A stretch of 64,000 bases of DNA from Dehalococcoidia bacterium. Lineage in GTDB: Bacteria > Chloroflexota > Dehalococcoidia > Tepidiformales > Tepidiformaceae. The stretch is from assembly GCA_009841435.1 (NCBI GenBank), contig VXLW01000029.1, positions 1 to 64,000 on the forward strand, given 5' to 3'. The translations under genes were made by a program, and so were the position numbers. Shown here piece by piece: positions 3,235 through 21,058 of the stretch. The notes below the pieces were generated by a model. The model did not search any database. It saw only the letters and a program-made list of their open reading frames with translations, and was not told the origin of the DNA. Position 1 is the stretch's first letter; every line of letters starts with the position of its first letter.

Positions 3235-4499
3235 CCGCCGTCCCGTCCGTCACCGTCGACGACATCGAAGCGGCCCGCGACGTGATTGCGGGAGGCATCC
3301 TCGAGACGCCGGTCTGGCCCGCCCGCGCCCTGGAACGCCTGACCGGAGTCCCGGTCGTGCTCAAGTGTGAACAGCTCCAGCGCGCCGGCTCCTTCAAGAT
3401 TCGCGGCGCCCTCAACGCCATCCACTCCCTCGCCGAGGAGGACCGCGCCCGCGGCGTCGTGGCCGCCAGCGCCGGCAACCACGCCCAGGGAGTTGCCCTG
3501 GCCGCGCAGGCGGCCGGCATCGCCGCTACTGTCGTCATGCCCGAGGGAGCCCCCCTCGTGAAGGCCGCCGCCACCGAGGGATACGGCGCCCGCGTCATCT
3601 TCCACGGCGAGTCGCTCGAGGAGGCCCGTGCCCATGCCGGCGAGCTCGCCCGGCGCGACGGGCTCGTCTATCTGCCTCCCTTCGACAACGACGCGGTCAT
3701 CGCCGGGCAGGGCACGCTCGGCCTCGAGCTGCTCGAGCAGATCCCCGACCTTGCCGAGGTGCTCGTCCCCGCAGGTGGCGGCGGGCTCCTCGCCGGCGTC
3801 GCCACGGCCATCAAGGCGCGGCGCCCCGGGGTGCGCGTCGTGGGGGTGCAGGCCGCGGCCATGGACGGCATCTGCCGCTCCTACGAGGTCGGCGAGGTCC
3901 GCAGCGTCCCCCACGCCGGCACCCTTGCCGATGGCGTCGCCGTCGCCGGCCCCTCCGACCGCACGTTCGCCCTCATCCGCGAGCACGTTGACGAGATGAT
4001 CGCCTGCGGCGACACCGCCATTGCCCATGCGATGGTGTACCTCCTCGAGACCTCGAAGCTGCTCGTCGAGGGCGCTGGCGCTCTCGGCGTCGCCGCGCTC
4101 CTTTCCGACGCTTACCGCCCCCGCGCGAAGACCGCCATCGTCCTCTCCGGCGGCAACGTCGATATCAACCGGCTCGGCTCAATCGTGCGCTACGGCCTCG
4201 TCGAGGATGGCCGCTACCGCCACCTCACCATCGAGATTGCCGACGTGCCCGGCGAGCTCGCCGCCATCACCGGCGCCATCGCCGGCGAGTCCGCCAACCT
4301 GCTCGAAGTGAACCACGACCGTGAGGCCCCCGGTCTCCCCGTCGAGGTCGCCCTCATCGACCTCCTGCTCGAGGTCAACGGTCCTGACCACTTCGAGCGC
4401 GTGCGGGAAGCCCTCCGCGAGAAGGGCCTGGGCGACATTACCCTCGACCCACCGCGCATGAACACGGCCGGCGCCCGCCGTCGCTACGAAACCGGCTGA
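3231..4499 (+). CDS. ilvA: Threonine ammonia-lyase (threonine deaminase) with ACT domain
   Basis: PLP enzyme converting threonine to 2-oxobutyrate and ammonia, the first step of isoleucine synthesis or threonine catabolism. 422 aa. The PLP lysine is Lys56 in GSFKIRGA; SAGNHAQG binds the substrate carboxylate; PAGGGGLLAG is the phosphate-binding glycine loop; SGGN lies near the end of the catalytic domain. A C-terminal ACT-type domain begins near residue 325 (ADVPGELAAITGAI). One ACT domain and this length fit the shorter TdcB/IlvA type rather than the 500-aa IlvA with two regulatory lobes. It is coupled by ATGA to the Cys-rich gene. Serine dehydration is a likely side activity. Its 2-oxobutyrate could feed the 2-oxoacid dehydrogenases at 33-42 kb. 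Confidence 0.9.
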   Translation: MTAVPSVTVDDIEAARDVIAGGILETPVWPARALERLTGVPVVLKCEQLQRAGSFKIRGALNAIHSLAEEDRARGVVAASAGNHAQGVALAAQAAGIAATVVMPEGAPLVKAAATEGYGARVIFHGESLEEARAHAGELARRDGLVYLPPFDNDAVIAGQGTLGLELLEQIPDLAEVLVPAGGGGLLAGVATAIKARRPGVRVVGVQAAAMDGICRSYEVGEVRSVPHAGTLADGVAVAGPSDRTFALIREHVDEMIACGDTAIAHAMVYLLETSKLLVEGAGALGVAALLSDAYRPRAKTAIVLSGGNVDINRLGSIVRYGLVEDGRYRHLTIEIADVPGELAAITGAIAGESANLLEVNHDREAPGLPVEVALIDLLLEVNGPDHFERVREALREKGLGDITLDPPRMNTAGARRRYETG

Positions 4500-17980: not shown

Positions 17981-18325
17981 ATGTCGTACGAACTCGATGC
18001 CCTGACCGACGCCACGCCCCGCGACGACCTGCCCGACTTCGGCAGCGGCGATACCGTGCGCGTCCACGCCAAGGTCGTCGAGGGCAACAAGGAGCGTATC
18101 CAGGTCTTCGCCGGCGTCGTCATCCGCAAGCGGCGCAAGGGCATGGCCTCGAACTTCACCGTCCGCAAGATCGCCAGCGGCGTCGGCGTTGAGCGCACCT
18201 TCCCCCTCTACAGCCCCCGCCTCGACAAGATCGAGGTCGTGCGCCGTGGCAAGGTCCGCCGCAAGAACCTCTCCTACCTCCGCGGCCTCACCGGTCGAGC
18301 GGCCCGCATCAAGGAACGCCGCTAG
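17981..18325 (+). CDS. rplS: 50S ribosomal protein L19
   Basis: 114 aa, complete. [50 protein letters not shown] and [19 protein letters not shown] are diagnostic. L19 sits at the subunit interface. In most bacteria rplS follows trmD; here dut is upstream and an exported repeat protein downstream, and rplS has its own promoter. Confidence 0.97.
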
Positions 18326-18381: not shown

Positions 18382-19455
18382 ATGGTTCGCCTGTATATCT
18401 TGCTCGCCGTCCTCGTCGCGACTCCAGCGGTGGCTGCCGTATCCGTAGTCAGCGCTGACGAAGAGACTGAGAACTCGGGTTTCGTCAGCGTCGATGTGCG
18501 CGTGTGGCAGGACGTCAGGGACGATCACGCCCTCTACATCAGCGCTCGTGCTGCTGGCGGCTCCTGGCGGACGCTCGGGACGATCCCCCTCCCTCTCGAC
18601 GATGGTCATAGTGCTAGCGGACGCCTTCGCTATGGCGACATCAGCATTGCGGTGCCCGCGGTGGACCGTTTCGCCGGCGTCGATGTTCGAGTCTGGCAGG
18701 ACGTCAACTATGGCAATGCCATCTACATCGGCGCCCGCCTAGCTGGGGTCCCGTGGGATACGCTCGGGACGATCCCTCTCCCGCTCGCTGATGGCCACAG
18801 TAGCAGCGGGCGCTTTCGCTATGGAGACGTCACGCTCTCCGTCCCCTGGCTCGTCAGCATCGAAGGCACGGTGACTGACCTGGAAGGAAGGCCCCGGGAA
18901 GGCATTGCCCTGGAGGCCTTTCCGGCCAGCACTTCGGACTTTCGTGTTGGACTCGGAGCCGCCCGAAGCACGACAAGCAACGATGGGAGTTTCTCGTTCT
19001 CTGTTCCCGCAGACTCGTACTACCTAAGGCTGGTGGGCACCGGAGCCCGCTTCCCGTCGTACTTGGGGAGTGAAGGGCAGTTCGCGGAGGTTCCCGAAAG
19101 CTTGAAGCCACTTGAGGTGGGTGCCGACATCACAGGACTTGTGCTCACATACGGGGTGATCAGCGGCTCGGTTCGTGGCATCTGGCAGGTGTCAGAGGAC
19201 TTGCATGTCCGGCTCGGGGAACCGGCCAGAAATACGGGCTATTTCGAACCGCTCCGGGGCGCATTCGCGTACATCCGTGCCCCCGGTACCTACCTGTTGA
19301 CGATTGTCTGCCATGTCACCGACACGCTCGGCTGGTATGGCGGTGAAACCGGCTTCGTGACGGAACGCGCCGGCGCCACTCCCATTGTCCTTGAGGCCGC
19401 TGACGTCGTCGGTCTCGTCATCGACCTCCCTGAGGACCGGCCGTCCTGTCCCTAG
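18382..19455 (+). CDS. Exported protein with two VWQDV-RYGD repeats and carboxypeptidase-regulatory-like domains
   Basis: 357 aa, not a named family. Signal peptide 1 to about 24. Two similar modules of about 56 aa follow (37-92 and 100-155): each has VDVRVWQDV, YI.AR.AG..W.TLGTIPLPL.DGHS, and SGR.RYGD ending in VP. From about 157 a carboxypeptidase-regulatory-like beta domain (VSIEGTVTDLEGRPREGIALEAF, then a D-G-S-F-S-F strand) begins, followed by a second beta region (GVISGSVRGIWQVSEDLHVRL). No catalytic motif or transmembrane anchor is visible. Third codon positions look less G/C-biased than in neighbouring genes, which may mean faster change or transfer. Likely cell-surface or secreted; binding role inferred. 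Confidence 0.75.
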   Translation: MVRLYILLAVLVATPAVAAVSVVSADEETENSGFVSVDVRVWQDVRDDHALYISARAAGGSWRTLGTIPLPLDDGHSASGRLRYGDISIAVPAVDRFAGVDVRVWQDVNYGNAIYIGARLAGVPWDTLGTIPLPLADGHSSSGRFRYGDVTLSVPWLVSIEGTVTDLEGRPREGIALEAFPASTSDFRVGLGAARSTTSNDGSFSFSVPADSYYLRLVGTGARFPSYLGSEGQFAEVPESLKPLEVGADITGLVLTYGVISGSVRGIWQVSEDLHVRLGEPARNTGYFEPLRGAFAYIRAPGTYLLTIVCHVTDTLGWYGGETGFVTERAGATPIVLEAADVVGLVIDLPEDRPSCP

Positions 19456-19462
19456 CCGCCCC

Positions 19463-21058
19463 CTACGCCTCCACCGCCGCCACCAGTTCGTACAGCGGCT
19501 GGCCGCCCTCCACCACCTCCACCTCGACATCCTCGAAGGCCGCCTCGATGCGCTCCGCGAGCTCGTCCCGCGATCCCTCGAACCCCTCCCCCACGTAGAC
19601 CGTCACGATGGCGGCGTCTGCCGCCTCCGCCTCCGCCAGCCCCGCCAGCAGCCCCTCCACCGGGTCGTCCGTGCCCCCGATGAGCGTCCCGTCGACGAGC
19701 GTGATCGCCTCCCCTTCTTGCACGTCCACCCCGTCCGCGGTGCGATCGGCCGCCGCCCGCGTCACCTCGACCGAGCGCGTGGCTTCGAGCGCCTCCGTCA
19801 GCGCCTCCGTGTTCTCCTCCGGCGTCGAGAGCGCGTTGAACGCGATCGCCGCCGCCGCGCCCTGTCCCAGCGAGATCGAGGGGGCCACGTGCAGGTTGCA
19901 GCGCGCCAGCTCGACAGCCTGCTCCGCCGCCGGAATCGCGTTCTTGTGGTTGGGGAGCACGATCACGTCCGCCGGGCCGAGCGCGTCCGCCGCCTGTGCG
20001 ATGTCGCCCGCCGCCGGCTTTACGATCGCCTCCAGCCGGTGGATGCTCGCGCCCAGGCTCAGGAACACCTCGTCGAACCCGGCGCTGCTGCTCAGCGCCA
20101 GCAGTCCCACCTTCTGCCCCGCGCCGCTTCCCTCCTCCCGGAAGCGCACATGCTGAGCGCTCATGTCCTCGAACTTGGGCCGCGTCAGCTCCCCGAACGT
20201 CCCCGCCTCCTCCAGCAACCGCTCCGGCTCGTTCGTGTGCACGTGGACCCGCAACGCCTGCTCGTCCCCCACGATCACCACCGACCCGTACCCCTCCCCC
20301 TCCGTGTGCCGCCGCAACCCCTCGACATCGACCTCGCGCTCGCCCGGAACCAGCACGAACTCCGTGCAGTATCCGAACCCGTCGTCGATGTGACCCGGCA
20401 GCATCGCCAGCGGCTTGTCCGGGATTGCGACCGGCGGCGGGAGCTCGCCCCGCAACGCCGCCACCAACCCCCGCAGGATGACGCAGACCCCCTCGCCCCC
20501 CGCGTCCGTGACCCCCGCCTCGCGCAGGGCCGGGAGCTGGTCGATCGTCTCCGCCTCCGCCCGCTCCGCCTCCGCCAGGGCAGCCTCCAGCACCACCAGC
20601 ACCCCATCCCGGGCGCGTGGCTCCGCCCCCGTCGCCGCCGCCCGCAGGACCGTGAGCATCGTCCCCTCCACCGGCTCCGAGACGGCCGTGTAGGCCGCCG
20701 CCGCCGCCGCCCGCAGCCCCTCGGCGAGCACCTCGCCGCCCAGGTCCTCGACCTCCCCCACGCCCTTCGCCAGCCCCAGCAACGACTGCGAGAGGATGAC
20801 GCCCGAGTTCCCCCGCCCGCCGTAGAGAGCGCCCCGCGCGAACGTCGCCAGCACTTGCCCTGCCGCCAGCGGCTCTTCCAGTGCGAGCATGTGGTCGCAC
20901 GCCTCCCGCAGCGTCGCCGCCATGTTCGAGCCCGTATCGCCGTCCGGAACGGGGTAGACGTTGATGGCGTCGACGGCCTTCGCCGACGCCGTCAGGTAGT
21001 CCGACGCAGAGGTGATCGCGGCCCGCAACTCCGTCCCGCTCAGCGTCTCGCCGCTCAT
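19463..21058 (-). CDS. fakA: DAK-domain fatty acid kinase-like protein (FakA/YloV)
   Basis: 531 aa. The N-terminal DhaL-type ATP-binding domain is clear: INVYPVPDGDTGSNMAATL (Asp residues for Mg-ATP), FARGALYGGRGNSGVILSQ. A central domain (GYCTEFVLVPGEREVDVEGLRR, HVHTNEPERLLEEAG) and a C-terminal DegV-like domain (KVGLLALSSSAGFDEVFLSLGA, VLPNHKNAIPAAEQAVELA) complete the FakA layout. In Staphylococcus FakA phosphorylates fatty acids held by FakB (DegV proteins); a DegV gene lies 1 kb away. Ahead of rpmB in divergent orientation, sharing a palindromic promoter region; GGGAGGGGGA precedes the ATG. Confidence 0.88.
   Translation of the reverse strand: MSGETLSGTELRAAITSASDYLTASAKAVDAINVYPVPDGDTGSNMAATLREACDHMLALEEPLAAGQVLATFARGALYGGRGNSGVILSQSLLGLAKGVGEVEDLGGEVLAEGLRAAAAAAYTAVSEPVEGTMLTVLRAAATGAEPRARDGVLVVLEAALAEAERAEAETIDQLPALREAGVTDAGGEGVCVILRGLVAALRGELPPPVAIPDKPLAMLPGHIDDGFGYCTEFVLVPGEREVDVEGLRRHTEGEGYGSVVIVGDEQALRVHVHTNEPERLLEEAGTFGELTRPKFEDMSAQHVRFREEGSGAGQKVGLLALSSSAGFDEVFLSLGASIHRLEAIVKPAAGDIAQAADALGPADVIVLPNHKNAIPAAEQAVELARCNLHVAPSISLGQGAAAAIAFNALSTPEENTEALTEALEATRSVEVTRAAADRTADGVDVQEGEAITLVDGTLIGGTDDPVEGLLAGLAEAEAADAAIVTVYVGEGFEGSRDELAERIEAAFEDVEVEVVEGGQPLYELVAAVEA

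Follow-up and report, generated by a model that had tools for sequence, protein, structure and literature searches.

Among the described systems closest to the protein module considered here are the SLH, CWB2 and similar wall-binding repeats, in which a repeated terminal module is carried by many unrelated exported payloads. SLH repeats are helical. Bacteria of the family Tepidiformaceae have been described as prevalent in marine sponges and as monoderm cells that possess peptidoglycan and an S-layer (PMC10284905). According to Robbins et al. 2021 (PMC8163846), the route by which eukaryote-like repeat proteins get from symbionts to sponge cells is largely unknown, and few sponge symbionts own the secretion systems needed. 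The stretch of DNA analysed here, referred to as the window, comprises 64,000 nucleotides from a member of the Tepidiformaceae (contig VXLW01000029.1) and harbours a gene for an exported protein with two copies of a short module, the VWQ module. The literature searches, as worded, turned up no paper naming this module.

The window protein and its module pair

The gene and its surroundings are composed of the following features:

17981..18325, + strand: left neighbour, ribosomal protein L19 gene (rplS), which marks the conserved locus
18382..19455, + strand: whole reading frame, an exported protein of 357 aa that bears the module pair
18382..18456, + strand: signal-peptide-like segment, residues 1-25, assigned from the sequence, cleavage site estimated
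18484..18657, + strand: module copy 1, residues 35-92 (profile E 6.9e-30; domain E 1e-30)
18673..18846, + strand: module copy 2, residues 98-155 (profile E 5.6e-27; domain E 6e-27)
18856..19044, + strand: payload part 1, a carboxypeptidase-regulatory-like (Ig-type) beta domain, residues 159-221 (PF13620, sub-threshold)
19045..19452, + strand: payload part 2, residues 222-357, without a family match
19463..21058, - strand: right neighbour, a DAK-phosphatase-like gene, the other edge of the locus

The protein starts with the signal-peptide-like segment MVRLYILLAVLVATPAVAAVSVVSA, the hydrophobic run of which stops ~14 aa ahead of module copy 1. The reading frame, the signal-like start and the profile matches agree with the original prediction of an exported protein with a repeat, and the copy limits given there (residues 37-92 and 100-155) lie close to those set by the profile (35-92 and 98-155). 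Neither a lipobox, nor an LPxTG motif, nor a C-terminal membrane segment was found in the window protein by pattern and hydropathy rules. The less G/C-rich third codon positions noticed earlier were confirmed by a comparison of codon positions, third-position G+C being 0.717 in this gene versus 0.83-0.94 in the seven neighbours measured; among the other carriers of the window genome it ranges from 0.63 to 0.97.

Carboxypeptidase-regulatory-like domains, in the plural, had been proposed to follow the modules, but only one such domain was seen (residues 159-221). This region matches PF13620 with an E-value of 1.8e-6 and 28.6 bits over 58 of the 82 profile positions and does not reach the gathering score of 32.3 bits; by that rule it is related to CarboxypepD_reg rather than a full member of the family. 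Fold comparison of the same region yielded macroglobulin/Ig-type domains with Z up to 7.3. Past residue 219 the full-length model is poor (pLDDT <50 for residues 219-357).

The two copies of the module are identical at 40 of 59 positions, and their local alignment score of 218 far exceeds the maximum of 51 obtained in 2000 shuffles, so the similarity is not due to chance. It amounts to 68%, however, which falls short of the near identity once claimed, and the recent duplication or repeat turnover deduced from it did not withstand comparison with other proteins: copy 1 is closer to modules elsewhere (75%) than to copy 2, and a module's own partner is its best paralogous match for only 9 of 24 modules in the window genome, the figure for a complete sister genome being 9 of 28. 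Recent duplication inside the window gene was therefore rejected, as its two copies resemble one another no more than they resemble copies in other places. Modules of unrelated proteins in the window genome share about 57% identity on average, and the positions conserved most strongly include two tryptophans.

No family of Pfam or NCBIfam matched the module at cut-off, and neither PHROGs nor a sequence search of the PDB offered a convincing match, in keeping with the original prediction that the module belongs to no nameable domain. SLH and other catalogued wall-binding repeats were not matched in Pfam or NCBIfam by any of the modules scanned, and matches to CysA_C_terminal (PF17850), 21 residues long and below cut-off, were put down to chance. 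AlphaFold2, supplied with the module pair and 18 relatives, predicted one confident, all-beta unit with three long strands per module (mean pLDDT 88.4, pTM 0.84), copy 1 in the window protein being modelled as beta strands with pLDDT of about 80-95. The modelled pair found no usable match in the PDB with Foldseek (best E 0.031, probability 0.28) or VIA-align (best Z 4.1), or in a viral structure library (best E 0.016, TM 0.36). The module may be a small beta fold to which no solved structure is closely related, but the lack of a PDB match to a predicted model does not prove a new fold. Ten of 19 module pairs resemble the starch-binding domain CBM_25 below threshold (best E 2.8e-5), and none of them reached the gathering score of PF03423; in one single case the match scored 19.5 bits against a cut-off of 27.3 and covered 18 of 106 profile positions. 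The best PDB profile matches were likewise to CBM25 of a beta/alpha-amylase (2laa/2lab; E 0.28-0.35), over 22 aa containing YIHYRPAGGSW. No CBM25 structure appeared among the Foldseek or VIA-align rows, which does not in itself exclude a CBM25 fold.

Distribution and carriers of the module

The VWQ module is a family with ~28 copies in the window genome and not a private repeat of one protein: 21 matches were found with one module pair as the query and 28 with the profile. Sixteen carrier proteins, 12 of them with a pair, were identified there by iterated profiles among the stretches fetched. The nine genomes of the genus contain 28, 46, 17, 30, 40, 46, 31, 14 and 3 matches, and none was found in the remaining 31 genomes of the same search set, which come from the family and the class. 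The early impression of a genus-only domain, gained from 40 relatives, had to be given up after the class survey, in which 19 of 393 genomes, belonging to 6 of 226 genera and three families, carry the module; outside the genus it occurs in a few genera belonging to two further families of the Dehalococcoidia and, one probably misbinned contig aside, was not met again among the Chloroflexota and Gemmatimonadota genomes sampled. In a phylum sample of 400 Chloroflexota genomes the module was found in the window genome only, and neither it nor the RWLSSSPL module described below had any match on plasmids. Module variants of families f2 and f21 (L114, L121, L128, L130-L132) seem to be split by an insertion near position 40, in the DDG loop.

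One 5.1-kb contig filed under Gemmatimonadetes (L042, JAJEBS010000307.1) also carries a module gene. This record is the only match among 249 genomes of that group, and its NHL gene shares 84% DNA identity with NHL genes of the window genus; a genuine Gemmatimonadota carrier was dismissed on these grounds and the contig is probably misbinned. The other publicly named carriers are the complete Tepidiformaceae chromosome OY282446, one Dehalococcoidia MAG, and MAGs labelled IRC1, IRC3, APA and COS3. Judging by the MAG names, sponge metagenomes appear to be the source of most carriers with a name; the labels IRC, APA and COS3 presumably stand for Ircinia ramosa, Aplysina aerophoba and Coscinoderma matthewsi of Robbins et al. 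2021 (PMC8163846). As a hypothesis, the module may be restricted to sponge symbionts.

Almost without exception, the module occurs as a tandem pair or a single copy directly behind a signal-peptide-like segment. In 94 of 107 carrier frames the first module is preceded by a signal-like hydrophobic run, the median distance from the end of the run to the module being 11 aa; these frames include some orthologues and near-duplicate loci and are counted as frames, not as independent events. A few carriers (L031, L133, L134, L139 and L096, the last being an LRR protein) bear the pair at the extreme C-terminus. Among the 96 N-terminal carriers, simple hydropathy and pattern rules, used here instead of a trained predictor, revealed an AxA-type cleavage pattern in 69, one lipobox-like motif, one C-terminal membrane segment and no LPxTG motif, and the carriers almost never fit the class of lipoproteins or of sortase-anchored surface proteins.

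The payloads behind the module are unrelated to one another and include NHL, RCC1 and LRR repeats, alpha-2-macroglobulin, trypsin-like proteases, and periplasmic-binding-type, PA14/lipase-like and metallopeptidase-like proteins. The VWQ module is a common front handle and not the oddity of one adhesin. The eukaryotic-like repeats of sponge symbionts are of the LRR, ankyrin, TPR, HEAT and WD40 types; LRR repeats are clear among the carriers, whereas the NHL and RCC1 carriers are propellers, outside that usual list.

Several carriers are arranged side by side. On contig C49 of the window genome (L022:5393-15025), four NHL-propeller proteins of ~800 aa, each with a signal peptide and a module pair, are encoded in tandem, and NHL-propeller carriers are in tandem in sister genomes too (L036, L037, L038). 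The complete genome G004 contains two adjacent genes for near-identical single-module proteins of 268 aa (L104:2679-3482 and 3624-4427). The same genome encodes a single-module carrier with GmrSD_C (HNH-type) and Excalibur calcium-binding domains (L047), a candidate exported nuclease.

Exchange of the front slot and companion modules

Alpha-2-macroglobulins allow the segment in front of the payload to be compared among related proteins. Relatives of the module-bearing macroglobulin are 41-46% identical to it, the alignment beginning just past the modules. The relatives from ten other genera of the family lack the VWQ module; their N-terminus is a cytoplasmic stub followed by a membrane anchor that is apparently not cleaved. 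Among the other two families, a VWQ pair precedes the secreted macroglobulins of G158, G123, G331 and G150, those of genus g75 carry a different tandem module (consensus RLADGR.EFALQ.R..DGSW..R.LP..RFFPAD..VGRWLSSSPLTV), and the remaining ones have an anchor or a linker in front. A maximum-likelihood tree of 24 macroglobulins separates 11 secreted from 13 membrane-anchored forms at 100/100; the secreted forms of the three bacterial families are intermixed, with G150 (f2, L169) and G007 (f1, L135) being sisters at 99/98. Since the form of the window genus groups with those of other families and not with those of its own, the tree speaks for whole-gene transfer of module-bearing macroglobulins between families. 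Because secreted and anchored macroglobulins form separate clades, replacement of the anchor within one lineage was not observed; the two clades hold the protein in different ways. The front slot is shown to be exchangeable, with different modules sitting in the same position of related proteins.

The locus of the window gene repeats this exchange. The rplS gene was found in all nine genomes of the genus. In G006 an orthologue of the window protein (97% identical) lies between rplS and the DAK gene, whereas in G001, G003 and G008 the two genes adjoin with nothing between them. At the same locus G005 encodes a 392-aa protein with a signal peptide, a third tandem module (LQPGxNLAGWT...YAWDAxxQR...PGMGLWL) and a related, carboxypeptidase-regulatory-like payload, to which residues 160-342 of the window protein match weakly (26% identity); here, the payload was kept and the module swapped. 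Proteins with the third module adjoin rplS in G002 and G007 as well.

This third, GWNLAGW-type module (L219:1900-3075, L218:2-1444, L217, L026:3-2096, L111, L113) is thus found beside rplS in three sister genomes and is also present in the window genome; two proteins scanned gave no Pfam match to it. It resembles the VWQ module in being tandem, N-terminal and in an exchangeable slot, fronting a related payload in G005, but it is longer (~80 residues) and has no sequence likeness to VWQ.

The second uncatalogued module that occupies this slot, the RWLSSSPL type (L162, L163, L173-L202), matched no Pfam entry and was found in 29 of the 393 class genomes, namely in f1 genus g1, f2, f21 and one weak outlier. 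Like VWQ, it has ~58 residues, is often paired but also single, and stands behind signal peptides or at the extreme C-terminus. Both modules contain R..GSW followed by a final GRW/GRF..S..V strand in a collinear pattern; RWLSSSPL differs in its consensus, is only weakly similar in sequence and is far commoner in f21, where it is very frequent. The two profiles were aligned by hhalign collinearly over 48 columns (P 0.0026, probability 11.7%), and one sequence, L117, is recognised by both models (1.4e-18 and 0.055). Kinship of the two modules is likely, but not shown. The payloads of the RWLSSSPL module include macroglobulins, trypsin-like proteases and many orphan Peripla_BP_4 proteins, the module being N-terminal in L182, L189, L190, L191, L196 and L203-L212. 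No ABC permease or ATPase genes were found near these Peripla_BP_4 proteins, and a 14-helix membrane protein of ~640 aa recurs near several of their genes.

Possible roles of the module

Being shared by dozens of otherwise unrelated secreted proteins, the module has the look of a general handle that holds proteins on host material or at the surface of the cell. The reading favoured here, held tentatively and at a little under even chance, is that the VWQ module may fold on its own as an all-beta handle, placed in an exchangeable slot, by which exported proteins are retained at the surface. It is preferred because the module follows an export signal, fronts many payloads, is accompanied by no other anchor and is subject to slot exchange. 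A carrier would leave the cell by Sec export, its signal peptide would then be cleaved, and the module would bind one constant component of the producer's own surface, the putative partner being the S-layer or a wall polymer of the monoderm bacterium. Such binding would hold payloads of many kinds on display at the cell; for the window protein these would be the carboxypeptidase-regulatory-like beta domain and the C-terminal part. A mean identity of ~57% among the modules of unrelated proteins is as expected if all of them bind one partner.

Carriers that are released and attach to host material would, however, show the same pattern as retained ones. The module may bind material of the host or the environment, e.g. 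a sponge mesohyl glycan, and direct released proteins to it, a possible if rather doubtful explanation which fits nearly as well as retention, as under either one a conserved ligand site and the lack of a further anchor are expected. Besides the carriers' lack of other anchors, it draws on the two highly conserved tryptophans, the sponge-like MAGs of most named carriers and the CBM25 likeness (10 of 19 pairs below threshold, 2laa/2lab as best PDB profile matches), which leans weakly toward host or matrix binding. That likeness nevertheless spans ~20 residues, lies below the Pfam cut-off and has no CBM25 among the fold matches to back it, and a host-directed module is not obviously wanted on internal-looking binding proteins. 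Substrate-binding carriers were at one time considered proof of retention, but this argument was dropped, as no ABC permease or ATPase genes lie nearby and the role of the RWLSSSPL-bearing binding proteins does not demand retention at the cell. The window protein itself, judged from its sequence, is possibly a surface adhesin or a glycan binder, as first suggested. Its short module directly behind the signal peptide, and the other modules or plain linkers in the same place in relatives, would also suit a ligand-free structural or export aid, that is, a fast-folding cap or spacer that helps in membrane crossing, in folding or in keeping a distance from the surface; this seems improbable, the conservation across unrelated payloads and the C-terminal placement in some carriers both going beyond what a spacer needs. 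Finally, VWQ and RWLSSSPL could be branches of one old family of extracellular beta modules, with VWQ a local variant without a special role. The collinear full-length profile alignment (P 0.0026), the bridging sequence L117 and the shared slot and lineages agree with such a descent, but the hhalign probability is only 11.7% and common origin alone would not abolish a role, which makes this explanation very improbable.

In a wider and rather unlikely scenario, sponge-symbiotic Dehalococcoidia would possess a display system in which interchangeable VWQ, RWLSSSPL and GWNLAGW modules, spread together with payload genes by horizontal transfer between families within one host, bring eukaryote-like repeat proteins, protease inhibitors and proteases to the surface or matrix without a specialised secretion machine. 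As a recognisable handle on LRR, NHL and RCC1 proteins, alpha-2-macroglobulin and proteases, the VWQ module bears on the question of symbiont delivery; it lends itself to production in E. coli and to use as bait, and its profile allows many “hypothetical” exported proteins of Chloroflexota to be annotated. Even a plain wall-binding module would be a new one for a phylum in which surface anchoring is poorly known.

Compared with the known systems, the VWQ module shares with CBM25 a local resemblance around YIxxRPxGGSW; CBM25, in contrast, has about 100 residues, and the likeness is limited to ~20 residues below cut-off, with no fold match. From SLH/CWB2-type repeats the module differs in having no Pfam sequence match to them and in its all-beta prediction. 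If retention is true, it would nonetheless be like them a repeated terminal module on many unrelated exported payloads.
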